From positions 186,001 through 250,000 of the forward strand of contig NZ_SMFU01000011.1 of NCBI RefSeq assembly GCF_004339595.1: 64,000 nucleotides of DNA, in the 5' to 3' direction. How positions within the stretch are numbered: the stretch's first letter is position 1; each line of letters begins with the position of its first letter. The notes below the pieces were generated by a model, which worked only from the letters and a program-made list of their open reading frames with translations, was not told where the DNA came from and made no database searches. This document shows positions 17,706 through 23,400 of the stretch, piece after piece. Both the position numbers and the translations under genes were made by a program. The DNA is from Marinobacterium mangrovicola. GTDB lineage: Bacteria > Pseudomonadota > Gammaproteobacteria > Pseudomonadales > Balneatricaceae.

Positions 17706-18791
17706 ATGGACAACCTGTTAAGCGACTATCAATTGGGCGCTACCCGGCTGAGCAACCGCGTAGTGATGGCGCCGATGACGCGCTCCCGTGCCGTCGATGG
17801 CGTGCCCGATCATAACACCGCGCTTTACTACGCCCAGCGTGCCAGCGCCGGACTCATTATCAGTGAGGGCGTGCCGGTTTCCCGTCAGGGCACGGGCTAC
17901 CTGTACACGCCCGGTATCTACAGCGACCGCCAGGTGGATGCCTGGCGCGAGGTGACCGACGCAGTTCATGAGCAGGGCGGAAGAATCTTCGCCCAGCTCT
18001 GGCATGTGGGCCGCGTATCCCATCGCAGCATCCAGCCGAACAATAGCGCCCCGGTCAGCTCCGTGGCGGTGGCGGGCGGTAAGGCGTTTGCCTACGACGA
18101 CCAGGGCCAGGCCCGCGATCTGGCGGCAAGTGAACCACAGGCGCTGGATGCAGCCGGTATTGAAGATGTGGTCTACGAGTTTCGTCAGGCGGCGGCTAAC
18201 GCCATAGAGGCCGGTTTTGACGGTGTAGAGATTCATGCGGCAAACGGCTACCTGATTGAGCAGTTTATCAACCCGGCTTTTAATACCCGGGAAGACCGCT
18301 ACGGCGGTGCGACGCTGGAAAACCGCAGCCGTTTTCTGCTGGAAGTGGTTGATGCCGTGGTGGATGAGATTGGTGCTGACAGTACAGGCGTGCGTCTTTC
18401 TCCCTACAACGAGTTGGGCGAAATGCCTTTGTATGCCGATATCGCCGAGACCTATCTGCATATCACCGAAGCGCTGCAGGCGCGGGGCGTCGTCTATCTT
18501 CACCTAGCCGCGCAGGAAGCACTGATAACCAGCGGGCTGCTGGGGCAGATTCGCGATAGCTGGAAGGGTGCCTTGATGCTGGCGGGCGGTTTGTCGGCAG
18601 GGCAAGCGGACCAGATGATTGCGGACGGAGTGCTCGACCTGGCGGCCTTTGGCACTCCCTTTGTCGCCAACCCCGACTTTGTCGAGCGTACCCGCAACGG
18701 TTGGCCGCTGGCGTCGGTTAACCGATCGTCGTTCTATGGCGGCGGTGCCGAAGGCTATGTGGATTATCCAATTTACCAGCCGGCAGGCTGA
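17706..18791 (+). CDS. Alkene reductase, Old Yellow Enzyme family
   Basis: A 361-residue NADH:flavin oxidoreductase related to NemA and N-ethylmaleimide reductase, which reduce C=C bonds of electrophilic enones, nitrate esters and maleimides. Seen are NRVVMAPMTRSRA near the start, AQLWHVGRVSH near residue 98, FDGVEIHAANGYLIEQFINP with the catalytic-type H/N pair near 178, and RLSPYNELGEM near 224. The GGAGG site at 17695 gives a good start. A perfect stem-loop terminator at 18812-18840 follows. Its pairing with an LLM flavoenzyme suggests electrophile reduction, but the natural substrate is unknown. Confidence 0.92.
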   Translation: MDNLLSDYQLGATRLSNRVVMAPMTRSRAVDGVPDHNTALYYAQRASAGLIISEGVPVSRQGTGYLYTPGIYSDRQVDAWREVTDAVHEQGGRIFAQLWHVGRVSHRSIQPNNSAPVSSVAVAGGKAFAYDDQGQARDLAASEPQALDAAGIEDVVYEFRQAAANAIEAGFDGVEIHAANGYLIEQFINPAFNTREDRYGGATLENRSRFLLEVVDAVVDEIGADSTGVRLSPYNELGEMPLYADIAETYLHITEALQARGVVYLHLAAQEALITSGLLGQIRDSWKGALMLAGGLSAGQADQMIADGVLDLAAFGTPFVANPDFVERTRNGWPLASVNRSSFYGGGAEGYVDYPIYQPAG

Positions 18792-18811: not shown

Positions 18812-18840
18812 AAACGGGCGCTCAGATTGAGCGCCCGTTT
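18812..18840. terminator. Bidirectional terminator between Old Yellow Enzyme gene and small peptide gene
   Basis: A perfect 13-bp stem (AAACGGGCGCTCA and complement) with a 3-base loop, flanked by TTT on the plus side and TTTTCG on the minus side. It lies 5 bp past the stop of the minus-strand 30-codon gene and 20 bp past the Old Yellow Enzyme stop. A related hairpin ends the second peptide gene at 20068-20096. Confidence 0.85.
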
Positions 18841-18845
18841 GTCTA

Positions 18846-18938
18846 TTAATGCTGCGGCATCGGCGGCAGGGGAATCGGCTGCTGCGGCCAATCGGCAGCG
18901 ATCTGATCATCATAGTCTGCAGCGTTGAGTGTCCACAT
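18846..18938 (-). CDS. 30-residue acidic/proline-rich peptide, copy 1 (undescribed)
   Basis: An ATG at 18938 with an excellent AGGAGG site 7 bases upstream opens a 31-codon frame. The peptide begins MWTLNAADYDDQ, continues IAAD, and ends WPQQPIPLPPMPQH. A second copy at 20099-20191 is 26 of 30 residues identical. Of eight nucleotide differences, four are silent and all keep the frame, which argues for selection on the protein. The 54-bp leader (18939-18992) differs by two bases from that of copy 2, and a 25-bp block (19005-19029) is identical at the same distance in both. A terminator follows. There is no hydrophobic segment or signal peptide. The opening MW recalls PqqA but the PqqA Glu/Tyr core is missing. 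Function unknown. Confidence 0.8.
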   Translation of the reverse strand: MWTLNAADYDDQIAADWPQQPIPLPPMPQH

Positions 18939-19004
18939 AGCAAAACCTCCTAAATTGATTACCAGCGTGCTGGCTAAGTAGGAGCAGTTTGCATCGACGT
19001 ACGA

Positions 19005-19029
19005 ATAAGTAAAAATTAATATTGTCTAT
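19005..19029 (-). promoter_or_regulatory. Conserved upstream box of small peptide copy 1
   Basis: This 25-bp AT-rich block is identical to 20258-20282 and ends 67 bp before the start codon in both copies, while the 12 bp just downstream differ. That spacing and conservation suggest promoter elements or a regulator site. On the minus strand it contains TAGACA followed about 17 bp later by TTATTC-like sequence. Confidence 0.55.
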
Positions 19030-19436
19030 GAATAGTATAATTTTTAGCTTATAGCTGGCTGTTTATTGGGTGTGGCTGTGGGCCTTGGGCAGAGTGTGTC
19101 GTTTAACAACAGTCTCCGACCTGCCTGGGGGCAGGGATCAAGTCGGCCAGGAATTCCGCGCCTGGCGCTCGCAAAGTTTGTTCTGAAGCATCTGTTTTTG
19201 TGGCGTGTTGGCTTCTTTGGGCTAGGGTAAGGGGAGGCTGGTCATAGACAGAAAACCTTTAAGCAGTGGCTTGCTTAGCAGTTTTCGGCAGGTCTGTCGT
19301 TGACCGCCACCCGTTTAATTTCGAAGCCTGTTGCTGCGAGGCCGGCAGGTGATAAAAGGAGCATGGCTAGGTGAGGAGAGCGAGAGGTTTAATAGAATTT
19401 CAATGATTTTTAATTTATCGAAAAGGAATTTTTGAA

Positions 19437-19964
19437 ATGAAAAAATCTACAAAGGTATTTTGGGCGGGCGTTTTGACCTGTGCGCTTGGCCTGGTTGTTA
19501 TTCTGAATGCCGCCGTGGCTTCCGGCGCCATCGTCATTGTTACCGGTTTGATCCTGCTAATCGGAGGGGCGGCGCAAACGGGCCTCTATTTCATGGAGGG
19601 GAAGTCGGAGCGCAAATGGGGCTCTCTGGCTATCGGTATTCTGACGCTGCTGCTGGGTTGGTCTTTTATCGCCAACCCCTTGTCCGGCATCATCTCGCTG
19701 ACCACCTTGATACTGGTGTTATTCGCGGTCAGCGGCGTGCTGCAGATCATACTGGGAATTAGAGAGCGCGGTACTCCGCTGTTCTGGCCGCTGCTGATTG
19801 CGGGCATAATTCCCCTGGTGCTGGCGGGTGTTGTCCTCTCTTCACCTGCTGCGACCATGTTGCTGCTCGGGACATTGCTGGGGGTTCATATGCTGGCTTC
19901 CGGCACCTCACTTATCTTGCTCGGAAAATATATGAAGCAGGCGGGTGTGCAGACCGTCCGGTGA
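19437..19964 (+). CDS. HdeD-like DUF308 membrane protein
   Basis: A 175-residue inner-membrane protein with about six short hydrophobic helices arranged as three repeated pairs, the HdeD/DUF308 layout. Typical segments are VFWAGVLTCALGLVVILN, ALVIVTGLILLIGGAAQ-like stretch near 32-48, LAIGILTLLLGWSFIANP and a final LLGTLLGVHMLASGTSLILLGKYM. HdeD of E. coli is linked to acid resistance at high cell density; here there are no hde chaperone genes nearby. An AAAAGGA site precedes the ATG. The gene is bracketed by the two copies of the 30-codon peptide gene on the opposite strand. Confidence 0.82.
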   Translation: MKKSTKVFWAGVLTCALGLVVILNAAVASGAIVIVTGLILLIGGAAQTGLYFMEGKSERKWGSLAIGILTLLLGWSFIANPLSGIISLTTLILVLFAVSGVLQIILGIRERGTPLFWPLLIAGIIPLVLAGVVLSSPAATMLLLGTLLGVHMLASGTSLILLGKYMKQAGVQTVR

Positions 19965-20067
19965 GACGAAGTCTCTGTGACATCCAGTGCCACCAGGACC
20001 GCTGGGTCAGGCATAAGATGGGACAGGCAGTTGATAGAACAGGCAGTTGATAGAAAGATAAAACAAA

Positions 20068-20096
20068 AAACGGGCGCCTGGTGAAAGCGCCCGTTT
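20068..20096 (-). terminator. Terminator of small peptide copy 2
   Basis: Stem AAACGGGCGC pairs perfectly with its complement around a 9-base loop. On the minus strand it is followed by a run of T residues (complement of 20065-20070). It starts 3 bp past the peptide stop and also faces the end of the HdeD-like gene. Confidence 0.85.
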
Positions 20097-20098
20097 CT

Positions 20099-20191
20099 TT
20101 ATTGGTGCGGCATCGGCGGCAGGGGGATAGGCTTCTGCGGCCAATCAGCAGCGATCTGATCGTCATAGTCTGCAGCGTTGAGTATCCACAT
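20099..20191 (-). CDS. 30-residue acidic/proline-rich peptide, copy 2 (undescribed)
   Basis: Same design as copy 1: ATG at 20191, AGGAGG site, 31 codons, terminator directly after. The peptide begins MWILNAADYDDQ and ends WPQKPIPLPPMPHQ. Differences from copy 1 are T3I, Q20K and swapped last two residues; the central acidic block and the PIPLPPMP core are unchanged. The leader (20192-20245) carries the inverted repeat CCAGCGTGCTGG, also present in copy 1. A longer overlapping frame on this strand exists but is not conserved in copy 1, so it is judged spurious. Function unknown; candidates are a secreted or modified peptide, a regulator of a membrane partner, or a leader peptide. Confidence 0.8.
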   Translation of the reverse strand: MWILNAADYDDQIAADWPQKPIPLPPMPHQ

Positions 20192-20257
20192 AGCAAAACC
20201 TCCTAAATTGATTACCAGCGTGCTGGCCAAGTAGGAGTAGTTTGCCTTGGGGTATGG

Positions 20258-20282
20258 ATAAGTAAAAATTAATATTGTCTAT
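20258..20282 (-). promoter_or_regulatory. Conserved upstream box of small peptide copy 2
   Basis: Identical over 25 bp to 19005-19029 and at the same distance from the start codon. Together with the near-identical leader it implies that both peptide genes answer to the same signal. Confidence 0.55.
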
Positions 20283-20560
20283 TATTAGTATAAGCTTTTA
20301 ATTATGCCTGGGTTTATTTGTGGTGTGCGTCCTTGTTCGCAACGGGTGAGGCGGCGGGATTTATGGGAGTCAGTGCTGAGCACCGCACGCGATATCGTCG
20401 ATCCCTTGCCCAGGCGCGATGGCAAAGTTGGAATCTGACTGCGAGCTCCTGACACCCGTCTCAAGCTCTCTATCTATACTGTAAAAATATAAGAACTGTT
20501 CGCGCGGTTGTCGGAAACCACCCCGGCGGTACGGTCGAAAAGAGTCATTGAGGAGAGTTT

Positions 20561-20890
20561 ATGAGCACCAGTCTTACCGAGGTACTGCATGTACTGGTCC
20601 AGTGGCAGTGCACGCCAAACCAGGCGCTCGCTATCCTGAAGTTAGATCCCGAAAAGCCGTTTCCTGCGGTTCTTAACGAGGAACAGTGTGAACGCGTTAA
20701 TTTCGTGCTCAATATCCATTCATCCCTGGGTACGGTCTTTGACGATGCCGAAGAGGTGTACGGTTATATGTCCAGCCCCCACGAGGATCCCTACTACGAA
20801 GGCAAATCCCCCCTGGAGTTGATCAGCAGCGGGGATCTAACCGTGTTTGAGCGTGTCTGCTGGCATATAGATGCGATGAGAGTGCTCTGA
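20561..20890 (+). CDS. Orphan antitoxin-like protein (MbcA/ParS/Xre C-terminal domain, DUF2384-like)
   Basis: A 109-residue protein with a GAGGAG site before the ATG. The C-terminal segment GKSPLELISSGDLTVFERVCWHIDAMRVL (about 81-109) resembles the toxin-binding tail of MbcA/ParS/Xre antitoxins (usual pattern G-xxP-xxLL-x-G-xxx-V). The middle (LNEEQCERVNFVLNIHSSLGTVFDDAEEVYGYMSSPH) matches the start of the same domain. Such antitoxins normally pair with a RES-domain toxin, but no RES gene is adjacent: the flanks are a peptide gene and a transporter. It may be a solitary regulator or the remnant of a pair. Confidence 0.68.
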   Translation: MSTSLTEVLHVLVQWQCTPNQALAILKLDPEKPFPAVLNEEQCERVNFVLNIHSSLGTVFDDAEEVYGYMSSPHEDPYYEGKSPLELISSGDLTVFERVCWHIDAMRVL

Positions 20891-22374: not shown

Positions 22375-22800
22375 CGGGAGTGTCCGGAAAGAAAAGTGAA
22401 GCAGAAACGGCAGGCGATTCTATGTCTGAACAGAAGCCGTGACTATCTTTGATTGGTTGGATTGCAGGCAAAGACTGTTGTTGAGAATGGATAAGCCTTG
22501 GGTGTGGATAGCAGGCGCTATGACTCTCTCAGCGTAGGCCTTCAGGGGCAGCTTCGCTGCTGTGGATTCAATTCATCAACACTGACATTGAAAAGTCGGA
22601 TTTCTTTACACTATTCAGATACGTCTCTTTAAGCAAGAGTCGGAGGATTTTACAGACTCTAGTTGGATTTCGATGCTTAAAAGATATTTATGTTTGTATT
22701 TTAAGAATTATATTTATTTTGGCGCAATATTTGTATGCATATTTATTCTAAGAAATGTTTATGGGTCGGTGCGATCTAGTCGCGTGGTAAAGGGAAATTG
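22375..22800. other. AT-rich intergenic region before the VPLPA-CTERM genes
   Basis: About 420 bp without a credible gene. From about 22600 onward the base composition becomes clearly more AT-rich than the flanks and stays so through both VPLPA-CTERM genes. It probably contains the promoter of the first. Confidence 0.6.
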
Positions 22801-23400
22801 ATGAAAGCTTTAAAAGCGATTTTAATGACGGTGTCTTTGGTATTTGTATCAAGTTATACATCGGCGGGTACAGTTACTGTGTTTGAGCAGGACTTTGAAT
22901 CGTCTTTGGGTGCGAATGAAAGCCTGACTGGTGATGCTTGGATCCTCACAACTTCTTATGATTACGGGACCGGTTCGAGGATGCTCGGTGATCCGTTGGG
23001 ATCTTACAGTAACAACGAAAATGTAACCTATCAGATTTCTGGCTTGGACTTTTCTGACTTGGAATCTGCAGTACTGTCATTCGATCTATACGGTAGGAGT
23101 GAATACGGCTTCGACTGGCTTTGGATGTATGCTAACGGAAGCCAGTTCGCGGCTCATACCGGATTCAGAGCTGGAACTTTAACGTACGATCTCTCAGCTT
23201 TTGCAGGACTTTCTAACGTAGATCTTCGATGGTGGTGGATTTCAGATTTATCAATCGCCAGGCAGGGCTATACACTGGATAATATATCGGTGAGTGGTAT
23301 TTCGGCTGTGCCTGTTCCAGCCGCCGCATGGTTATTTGGAACTGCGTTACTTGGATTTGCTGGTACGAGACTTCGTCGCCGTAAGTCGATTACTGTATAA
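22801..23400 (+). CDS. VPLPA-CTERM sorting domain protein 1
   Basis: A 199-residue exported protein. It has a signal peptide (about residues 1-23), a beta-rich middle with motifs such as FEQDFESSLGANESLTGDAW and SVDLRWWWISD-like aromatic runs, and a C-terminal sorting signal: VPVPAAAWLFGTALLGFAGTRLRRRK, which is a VPxPAAxWL motif, a hydrophobic helix and a basic tail. VPLPA-CTERM tails are recognised by exosortase-type enzymes and go with exopolysaccharide production. No exosortase gene is in the window. The central domain may be a carbohydrate- or ligand-binding beta sandwich. The gene is unusually AT-rich. The ATG at 22801 follows AAAGGGAAATTG. Confidence 0.85.
   Translation: MKALKAILMTVSLVFVSSYTSAGTVTVFEQDFESSLGANESLTGDAWILTTSYDYGTGSRMLGDPLGSYSNNENVTYQISGLDFSDLESAVLSFDLYGRSEYGFDWLWMYANGSQFAAHTGFRAGTLTYDLSAFAGLSNVDLRWWWISDLSIARQGYTLDNISVSGISAVPVPAAAWLFGTALLGFAGTRLRRRKSITV

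Follow-up and report, generated by a model that had tools for sequence, protein, structure and literature searches.

The LysR-type regulator PycR of Pseudomonas aeruginosa and its pyruvate carboxylase are reportedly treated in a 2008 study by Kukavica-Ibrulj. In passages from three papers, PycR is encoded beside the pyruvate carboxylase genes and controls them (PMC5059739, PMC9765439, PMC10926688), and an excerpt from a further paper describes pycA and pycR as likely targets of CzcR in the same species (PMC13209446); the passages from the first three papers mention no small protein in this system. Here we analyzed a 64,000-nt stretch of Marinobacterium mangrovicola DNA (contig NZ_SMFU01000011.1, positions 186,001 to 250,000; referred to below as the window) that carries two copies of a gene for a 30-residue protein. 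Proteins of this size are rarely annotated, and their roles usually cannot be guessed. In this case the regulatory DNA yields a concrete assignment: both copies are preceded by a composite LysR-type operator that, judged from the sequence, is very probably shared with the promoter of pyruvate carboxylase. The arrangement resembles that of P. aeruginosa in that a LysR gene accompanies the carboxylase genes, with the operator lying between that gene and pycA in seven genomes of the genus and at 19 of 27 loci of the order. In P. aeruginosa, however, pycR is placed immediately downstream of the carboxylase operon in the passages of PMC5059739, whereas in Marinobacterium the LysR gene is divergent from pycA and upstream of it, and the operator is also found at one to three small-protein genes elsewhere in the chromosome. 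We gave the Marinobacterium regulator the name PycR after the P. aeruginosa regulator, without an alignment to that protein; orthologues (71 to 100% identity) were found in seven of the eight genus genomes.

A first-pass annotation of this DNA had described an identical 25-nt box 67 nt ahead of each ATG. The box is there and is conserved, but it proved to be only the 3′ part of a longer element that starts ~23 nt further upstream, and the annotation had missed that it belongs to a LysR-type operator common to pycA. The full operator consists of ATAAG-N6-CTTAT (or near variants), a gap of 14 nt, and ATATYRATTT, and its geometry (16-14-10 nt and then 73 to 76 nt to the ATG) is kept in all eight copies that we call PycR type. 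The same element lies between pycA, which encodes the biotin carboxylase subunit and is followed by pycB, and the divergent LysR gene in the seven genus genomes. When the pattern, with either G or T allowed at position 5, was searched in the eight genus genomes with up to two mismatches, 16 places were returned, compared to 1 for the reversed control; 15 were exact and corresponded to seven pycA promoters and eight peptide promoters, and the remaining place, which had two mismatches, could not be assigned. If only G is accepted there, copy 2 matches with one mismatch. The box on its own gave a similar picture. A 23-nt part of it, at up to three mismatches, matched only these two places in the window and none in 100 shuffles, and the box alone at up to three mismatches was found at 10 places in the eight genus genomes (control, 0), namely, nine peptide genes and the LysR-sbtA promoter of genome G002; this search misses the peptide gene of G002.

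Because the pattern was read off these same promoters, we carried out an independent test with a matrix for which 13 distinct sites, all at pycA in other genera, and no peptide promoters were used. In the window, copy 2 (40.3) and copy 1 (35.8) ranked first and second among ~128,000 positions; the third score (12.1) overlapped the box of copy 1 on the other strand, and the best score elsewhere was 3.7. The matrix also ranked the peptide promoter first in loci L034, L035 (both copies), L036, L037, and L039. At L038 and L040, which have a second type of wiring described below, the promoter again ranked first, although its scores of 3.2 and 9.3 were low; at L071, the top rank (3.8) went to the promoter between LysR and sbtA of G002, and all scores at the permease locus of G007 (L072) were negative. 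In wider searches, sites with at most one mismatch were present in 42 of 116 family genomes (51 places; reversed control, 2) and in 78 of 390 order genomes (84 places; reversed control, 12). Seventeen of the 22 family loci fetched from outside the genus were at pycA, 3 preceded an oxaloacetate decarboxylase gamma gene, and 2 were second sites after pycB, while pycA lay downstream at 20 of the 27 further order loci, 19 of which also had a divergent LysR-like frame. We propose this composite operator for PycR-type regulators; it stands between pycA and a divergent LysR gene in several families of the order. An OxyR site, our first guess from the ATAG and CTAT halves, was dropped when the matching element turned out to be that of the pycA promoter.

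Each copy forms a transcription unit of a single gene, complete with an operator, a promoter, a leader containing an AGGAGG site, a 30-codon gene, and a terminator (Table 1). The details given in the first-pass annotation held wherever we checked them. Between the two minus-strand frames, 4 residues out of 30 and 8 coding bases out of 90 are changed (91.1% identity), the 54-nt leaders differ at two positions and have the AGGAGG site in common, and a terminator-like hairpin of its own lies directly past the stop codon of each copy. A hairpin scan found three such sites compared to a shuffle mean of 2.0; it is the position after the stop codon, and not the count, that carries the argument. The duplicated unit takes the form of 229-nt direct repeats that are 86% identical, and its upstream element is AT-rich. 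If the conserved CAAACT/CACACT is the −10 element, transcription would start ~40 nt ahead of the ATG, which would center the ATAAG-N6-CTTAT palindrome near −65 and put ATATYRATTT near −35. A recognition site near −65 and an activation site near −35 are the usual layout of a LysR-type activator, and because the promoter layout fits such an activator, we infer that PycR may switch on pycAB and the small protein together. PycR, a CbbR-like LysR protein encoded divergently from pycA, would activate the peptide promoters through the recognition and activation sites, and the small protein would be made together with pyruvate carboxylase. PycR binding, activation, and coexpression are thus predictions from promoter architecture, and control of the peptide genes by PycR in the cell seems likely to us.

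Table 1. Positions of the features discussed in the text (window numbering unless a locus or contig is given)
Feature	Position	Strand	Remarks
Small-protein gene, copy 1 (30 aa), MWTLNAADYDDQIAADWPQQPIPLPPMPQH	18846..18938	minus	ORF; frame-keeping homologues, mainly silent change
Small-protein gene, copy 2 (30 aa), MWILNAADYDDQIAADWPQKPIPLPPMPHQ	20099..20191	minus	ORF; counterpart G003a
25-nt box, copy 1 (contains the downstream operator element)	19005..19029	minus	identical to copy 2 box
25-nt box, copy 2	20258..20282	minus	identical to copy 1 box
Upstream LysR-type half, copy 1, putative recognition site ATAAGCTAAAAATTAT	19037..19052	minus	~−65 if the proposed start is right
Downstream element, copy 1, putative activation site ATATTAATTT	19013..19022	minus	adjoins proposed −35
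Upstream operator half, copy 2 ATAATTAAAAGCTTAT	20290..20305	minus	
Downstream operator element, copy 2 ATATTAATTT	20266..20275	minus	
Terminator-like hairpin, copy 1	18812..18840	minus	13 pairs, loop of 3, T-rich tail after
Terminator-like hairpin, copy 2	20065..20099	minus	15 pairs, loop of 5, T-rich tail after
PycR gene of the window genome	G000:C5:118807-119751		
PycR-type operator at the peptide gene of G007	G007:C2:63451-63490		
57-residue ORF before permease	L038:5423-5596	plus	
57-residue ORF before permease	L040:5490-5663	plus	
57-residue ORF before permease	L071:1723-1896	minus	
Second PycR-type operator region after pycB	L130:3870-4124	minus	G446/G448
Second PycR-type operator region after pycB	L131:3440-3706	minus	G446/G448
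109-aa MbcA-like protein	20561-20890		
109-aa MbcA-like protein	L037:6386-6715		
Protein with VPVPAAAWLFGTALLG near the C terminus	22798-23400		
Protein with VPVPAAAWLFGTALLG near the C terminus	23730-24302		
aa, amino acids; ORF, open reading frame.

Homologues were sought in 96 related genomes, with matches of E below 1e-7 counted as strong. Strong homologues were found in seven of the eight genus genomes, the sole genome lacking one being G004 (an assembly that is 87% complete, in 490 contigs); the window genome itself gave two strong matches and a weak third one (E of 1.16). Two further genomes, G452 and G453 (of the six from another genus, g4), came from a profile search that covered 116 genomes of the family; weak matches in that search had E values of 0.015 to 1. 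The family thus amounts to 12 copies in nine genomes, three of them in G003, with lengths of 29, 30, or 34 residues. In the genus alignment (nine distinct rows), M1, DDQ, DWPQ, PIPLPP (with P21), and P28 are invariant. The conserved core of the family is DDQ..DWPQ.PIPLPP, and the g4 copies retain most of it (NDQ and DWSQ in G453; PVPLPP in G452). In agreement with the first-pass annotation, which recognized no known family, neither copy matched a Pfam or NCBIfam model at E ≤ 1, and the profile had no PDB sequence match at E ≤ 10. An order-wide profile search of 390 genomes, two of them from the genus, yielded beyond those two only 16 weak matches, and none of their frames looked related when read. 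A tblastn search of plasmids and phages with copy 1 gave no match at E ≤ 1, and viral contigs gave none to one degenerate exact pattern. In an unrelated Geobacter metagenome-assembled genome (L033, positions 2397 to 2417), a run of 21 nt is identical to part of the peptide gene's leader, possibly by chance.

The frames could have been secondary to a transcript that acts mainly as a regulatory RNA or that has a double role. The unit is short and monocistronic and ends in a strong terminator-like hairpin, and in G446 and G448 a second PycR-type operator after pycB precedes a frame-poor stretch with a hairpin. However, the pattern of conservation is that of a protein. All 12 copies kept the frame open when homologues were checked for breakage, as favors coding, with the caveat that they came from protein searches, which favor intact frames. 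Among seven divergent copies, codon positions 1 and 2 of the core were 91% identical compared to 60% at position 3, which is free to vary, and the leader was 58% conserved compared to 80% for the core codons. The ratio of nonsynonymous to synonymous change (dN/dS) was 0.05 to 0.30 in 25 of 45 pairs, higher in 10, and printed as 0 in 10 (1 pair without an amino acid change and 9 saturated at silent sites); with 17 to 19 silent sites per comparison, each value is rough, and 3 of the higher values (0.50 to 1.05) came from close pairs with one or two silent changes. The open frames, invariant residues, dN/dS values, and codon-position contrast together point to selection at the protein level. None of six loci had an Rfam match at gathering scores. 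Both frames are almost certainly real protein-coding genes, and a transcript that works mainly as RNA is quite improbable. As an observation apart from the peptide, the stretches after the second operator in G446 and G448 span ~150 to 200 nt, have no convincing ORF, contain a strong hairpin, have GGGAGGTGYCTNGAGAC in common, and gave no Rfam match; this element looks like a candidate PycR-controlled small RNA.

Judged from both position and protein sequence, the counterpart of copy 2 is G003a and that of copy 1 is G003b; G003a encodes a protein identical to that of copy 2, with three silent differences. Because of this pairing, the duplication predates the split between the window lineage and G003. 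Over the cassette DNA, copy 2 shares 88.2% identity with G003b and 85.6% with G003a, suggesting some exchange between the copies.

What might such a protein do? Inspection found no membrane segment; the middle is acidic, and the proline-rich end is invariant. We suppose that the protein is soluble and that its C-terminal DDQ..DWPQ.PIPLPP.P would form an extended, exposed linear segment that docks on a partner protein, through which it would adjust bicarbonate-dependent anaplerotic carboxylation. The reading that we cautiously favor is that of a stand-alone small protein, activated by PycR, whose proline-rich tail binds a partner and which tunes anaplerotic carboxylation; for the role in bicarbonate-linked anaplerosis, taken by itself, we regard the chances as about even. 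Pyruvate carboxylase consumes bicarbonate, and SbtA-type permeases, which accompany some copies, import it. The peptide recurrently accompanies bicarbonate metabolism. As its partner we would look first to pyruvate carboxylase (PycA/PycB); that this enzyme is the direct target is a guess that we think rather doubtful, and the sign of any effect would likewise be a guess. According to one paper, two-subunit pyruvate carboxylases are not stimulated by acetyl coenzyme A (acetyl-CoA) (PMC5059739). A coexpressed small protein would directly answer how the activity of such an enzyme is tuned, and our observations suggest a hidden small-protein player in the bicarbonate-dependent refilling of central metabolism. 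CP12, the glutamine synthetase inactivating factors, and CydX are known small proteins that tune metabolic enzymes or transporters. The peptide is like them in being short, accessory, and presumably expressed with what it would serve, but searches of Pfam, NCBIfam, and PDB gave no sequence relation to them. Another paper reportedly deals with a small protein that inhibits ammonium transport (PMC10714827). None of the entries listed by our literature searches connected a small protein with PycR, pyruvate carboxylase, or Marinobacterium.

Four of the 12 copies are wired differently. In G005, G006, G452, and G453, the peptide gene is divergent from a LysR gene (Pfam match in all four), and the LysR proteins of the other three are 52 to 86% identical to that of G005 (G452, 63%; G453, 52%). 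We use the label SbtR for the LysR protein beside the permeases of G005, G006, and G002. The split is clean, with all four SbtR-type copies divergent to such a gene and all eight PycR-type copies not adjoining one. SbtR-type operators have ATAGAT-N4-ATCTAT or variants, the same 14-nt gap, and an ATATYRATTT-like element; the first half is degraded in G006, and the operator of G453, whose second element is degenerate and was missed by our script, was aligned by eye. When 82 candidates from the window genome were scored against SbtR, only PycR (33% identity) passed 1e-30, and CbbR is the best NCBIfam model for PycR and for the G005 and G452 LysR proteins, each below its cutoff. The same protein thus appears to be wired to a paralogous LysR in G005, G006, and the two g4 genomes. 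Because the other genus has the LysR-adjacent arrangement, it is likely that the peptide gene was captured by the PycR circuit, with thin support from two fragmented assemblies.

In G005 and G006, the peptide gene lies between the divergent LysR gene and a small ORF followed by an Sbt_1 (PF05982) permease gene. This resembles the association of SbtA with a CbbR/CcmR-type LysR, in that the permease is paired with a PycR-related LysR protein. The SbtA relative of G002 is 93% identical and is likewise paired, with the operator retained at LysR-sbtA, but the peptide lies between the two only in G005 and G006. In cyanobacteria, the known small partner of SbtA, SbtB, has a PII fold and ~100 residues; the peptide differs from it in its 29 to 34 residues and in having no Pfam match. 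SbtA was rejected as an obligate partner: the window genome, G001, and G003 carry the peptide and have no SbtA match at an E value of 1e-20. In three genomes, the SbtA-type permease gene is preceded by a conserved 57-residue ORF that starts with xIDKRL/MIDKQL and looks membrane-like by eye.

The LysR-adjacent copies raise another possibility, that the peptide attaches to PycR or SbtR at the effector domain and either damps or sharpens the activity of the regulator; LysR and peptide would then make up a self-contained switch. Four of the 12 copies, from two genera, are encoded divergently from LysR; neither the G452 contig (4.6 kb) nor the G453 contig (8.7 kb), both of which have the LysR-peptide pair, carries an SbtA-type permease gene; and the peptide occurs in the circuits of two related LysR proteins. 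Nevertheless, 8 of 12 copies do not adjoin such a LysR gene, and the pycR-pycA operator is present in many genomes that have no strong peptide match. We consider such feedback unlikely, although among the alternatives it is the leading one. A broader proposal takes in both targets: the peptides may form a new small-protein family that serves as a switchable accessory of bicarbonate-linked metabolism, has passed between two paralogous CbbR-like regulators, and acts directly on pyruvate carboxylase or on the regulators, matching carboxylation to bicarbonate supply. We offer this only tentatively; if it is true, the peptide would be, to our knowledge, the first peptide effector of either.

The first-pass annotation held up as to a conserved coding peptide with its own promoter element and terminator; its suggested roles as a leader peptide or a precursor, and a link to HdeD, did not. 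A leader peptide would control a downstream gene through attenuation. The G005 and G006 loci, where the peptide gene and its hairpin separate the promoter from the small ORF and sbtA, would suit this, as would same-strand ORFs ~170 nt (third G003 copy), 580 nt (G001), and 240 nt (G452) downstream, the proline-rich last codons, and a stop codon close to the hairpin. In the window, however, neither copy has a same-strand downstream gene: the old yellow enzyme gene (ending at 18791) and the DUF308 gene (ending at 19964) are on the plus strand and convergent, as is trpA in G002. Where same-strand neighbors occur, they vary between loci (a thiamine-binding protein in G003; others judged by eye), and the sbtA operon of G002 has the operator and no peptide. 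Attenuation therefore ranks as highly improbable. A secreted or modified precursor, such as a pheromone, an antimicrobial, or a cofactor precursor, would fit the small size, the proline-rich C terminus, and the presence of two or three copies in two genomes out of nine. On the other hand, no signal sequence or leader/core division was apparent by eye, conservation extends to the C terminus, and the operator is that of a metabolic gene. A PqqA-like precursor has an E-x3-Y core and a radical-SAM maturase nearby; E-x3-Y occurred in none of the nine alignment rows, and no maturase was found among the five window neighbors searched (DUF308, old yellow enzyme, luciferase-like, MbcA-like, and a major facilitator superfamily transporter, the last of which was not tested as an exporter). 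We regard a precursor role as very improbable.

Several results count against a PycR-activated protein that tunes carboxylation. The peptide showed no sequence mimicry of PycA, PycB, or PycR (13, 48, and 37 of 60 shuffles, respectively, scored as high). Seven of the 10 pairs with dN/dS above 0.3 are not close and lie at 0.34 to 0.65. The four SbtR-type copies lack a PycR-type operator, and no PycR orthologue was found in G007, a 90%-complete assembly, despite the PycR-type operator at its peptide gene. Within the order, 7 of the 27 further loci are not at pycA, and 312 of 390 genomes have no site at up to one mismatch. Finally, the profile search of 116 genomes gave no strong peptide match in the other operator-carrying genera of the family, so pyruvate carboxylase would not generally need the peptide.

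The position of the peptide locus varies between species. In the window and in G003, the peptide is beside genes for old yellow enzyme, DUF308, and an MbcA-like protein; in G002 its neighbors are trpA on one side and an FKBP/rhodanese/MbcA-like cluster on the other; the third copy in G003 is near a rhodanese gene; the G001 copy is some way from an FKBP gene; and the G007 copy is near a nickel hydrogenase operon. The two window copies do bracket a DUF308/HdeD-like gene, as the first-pass annotation had pointed out. Among the seven genus peptide loci L034 to L040, L035, a locus collinear with the window, was the only one with a homologue of that gene, and because the other kinds of locus are without it, we take its presence to be incidental.

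Other loci with the operator, or near the peptide, drew our attention. In genus g13 (L125, L126, and L127), the PycR-type operator precedes the oxaloacetate decarboxylase gamma gene and not pycA (OAD_gamma Pfam match in L125, the others by likeness); oxaloacetate decarboxylase may have been brought under control of this type there. A one-mismatch site in L140 (G139) lies between a LysR-like frame and a candidate gene for what we take, by eye, to be malate:quinone oxidoreductase. The 109-residue MbcA-like protein, which has a subthreshold MbcA/ParS-type antitoxin C-terminal domain, is near the peptide in two kinds of locus, and no adjoining toxin gene was noticed. Further along the window, two neighboring proteins both have VPVPAAAWLFGTALLG near the C terminus and are presumably sorted in the manner of PEP-CTERM proteins.

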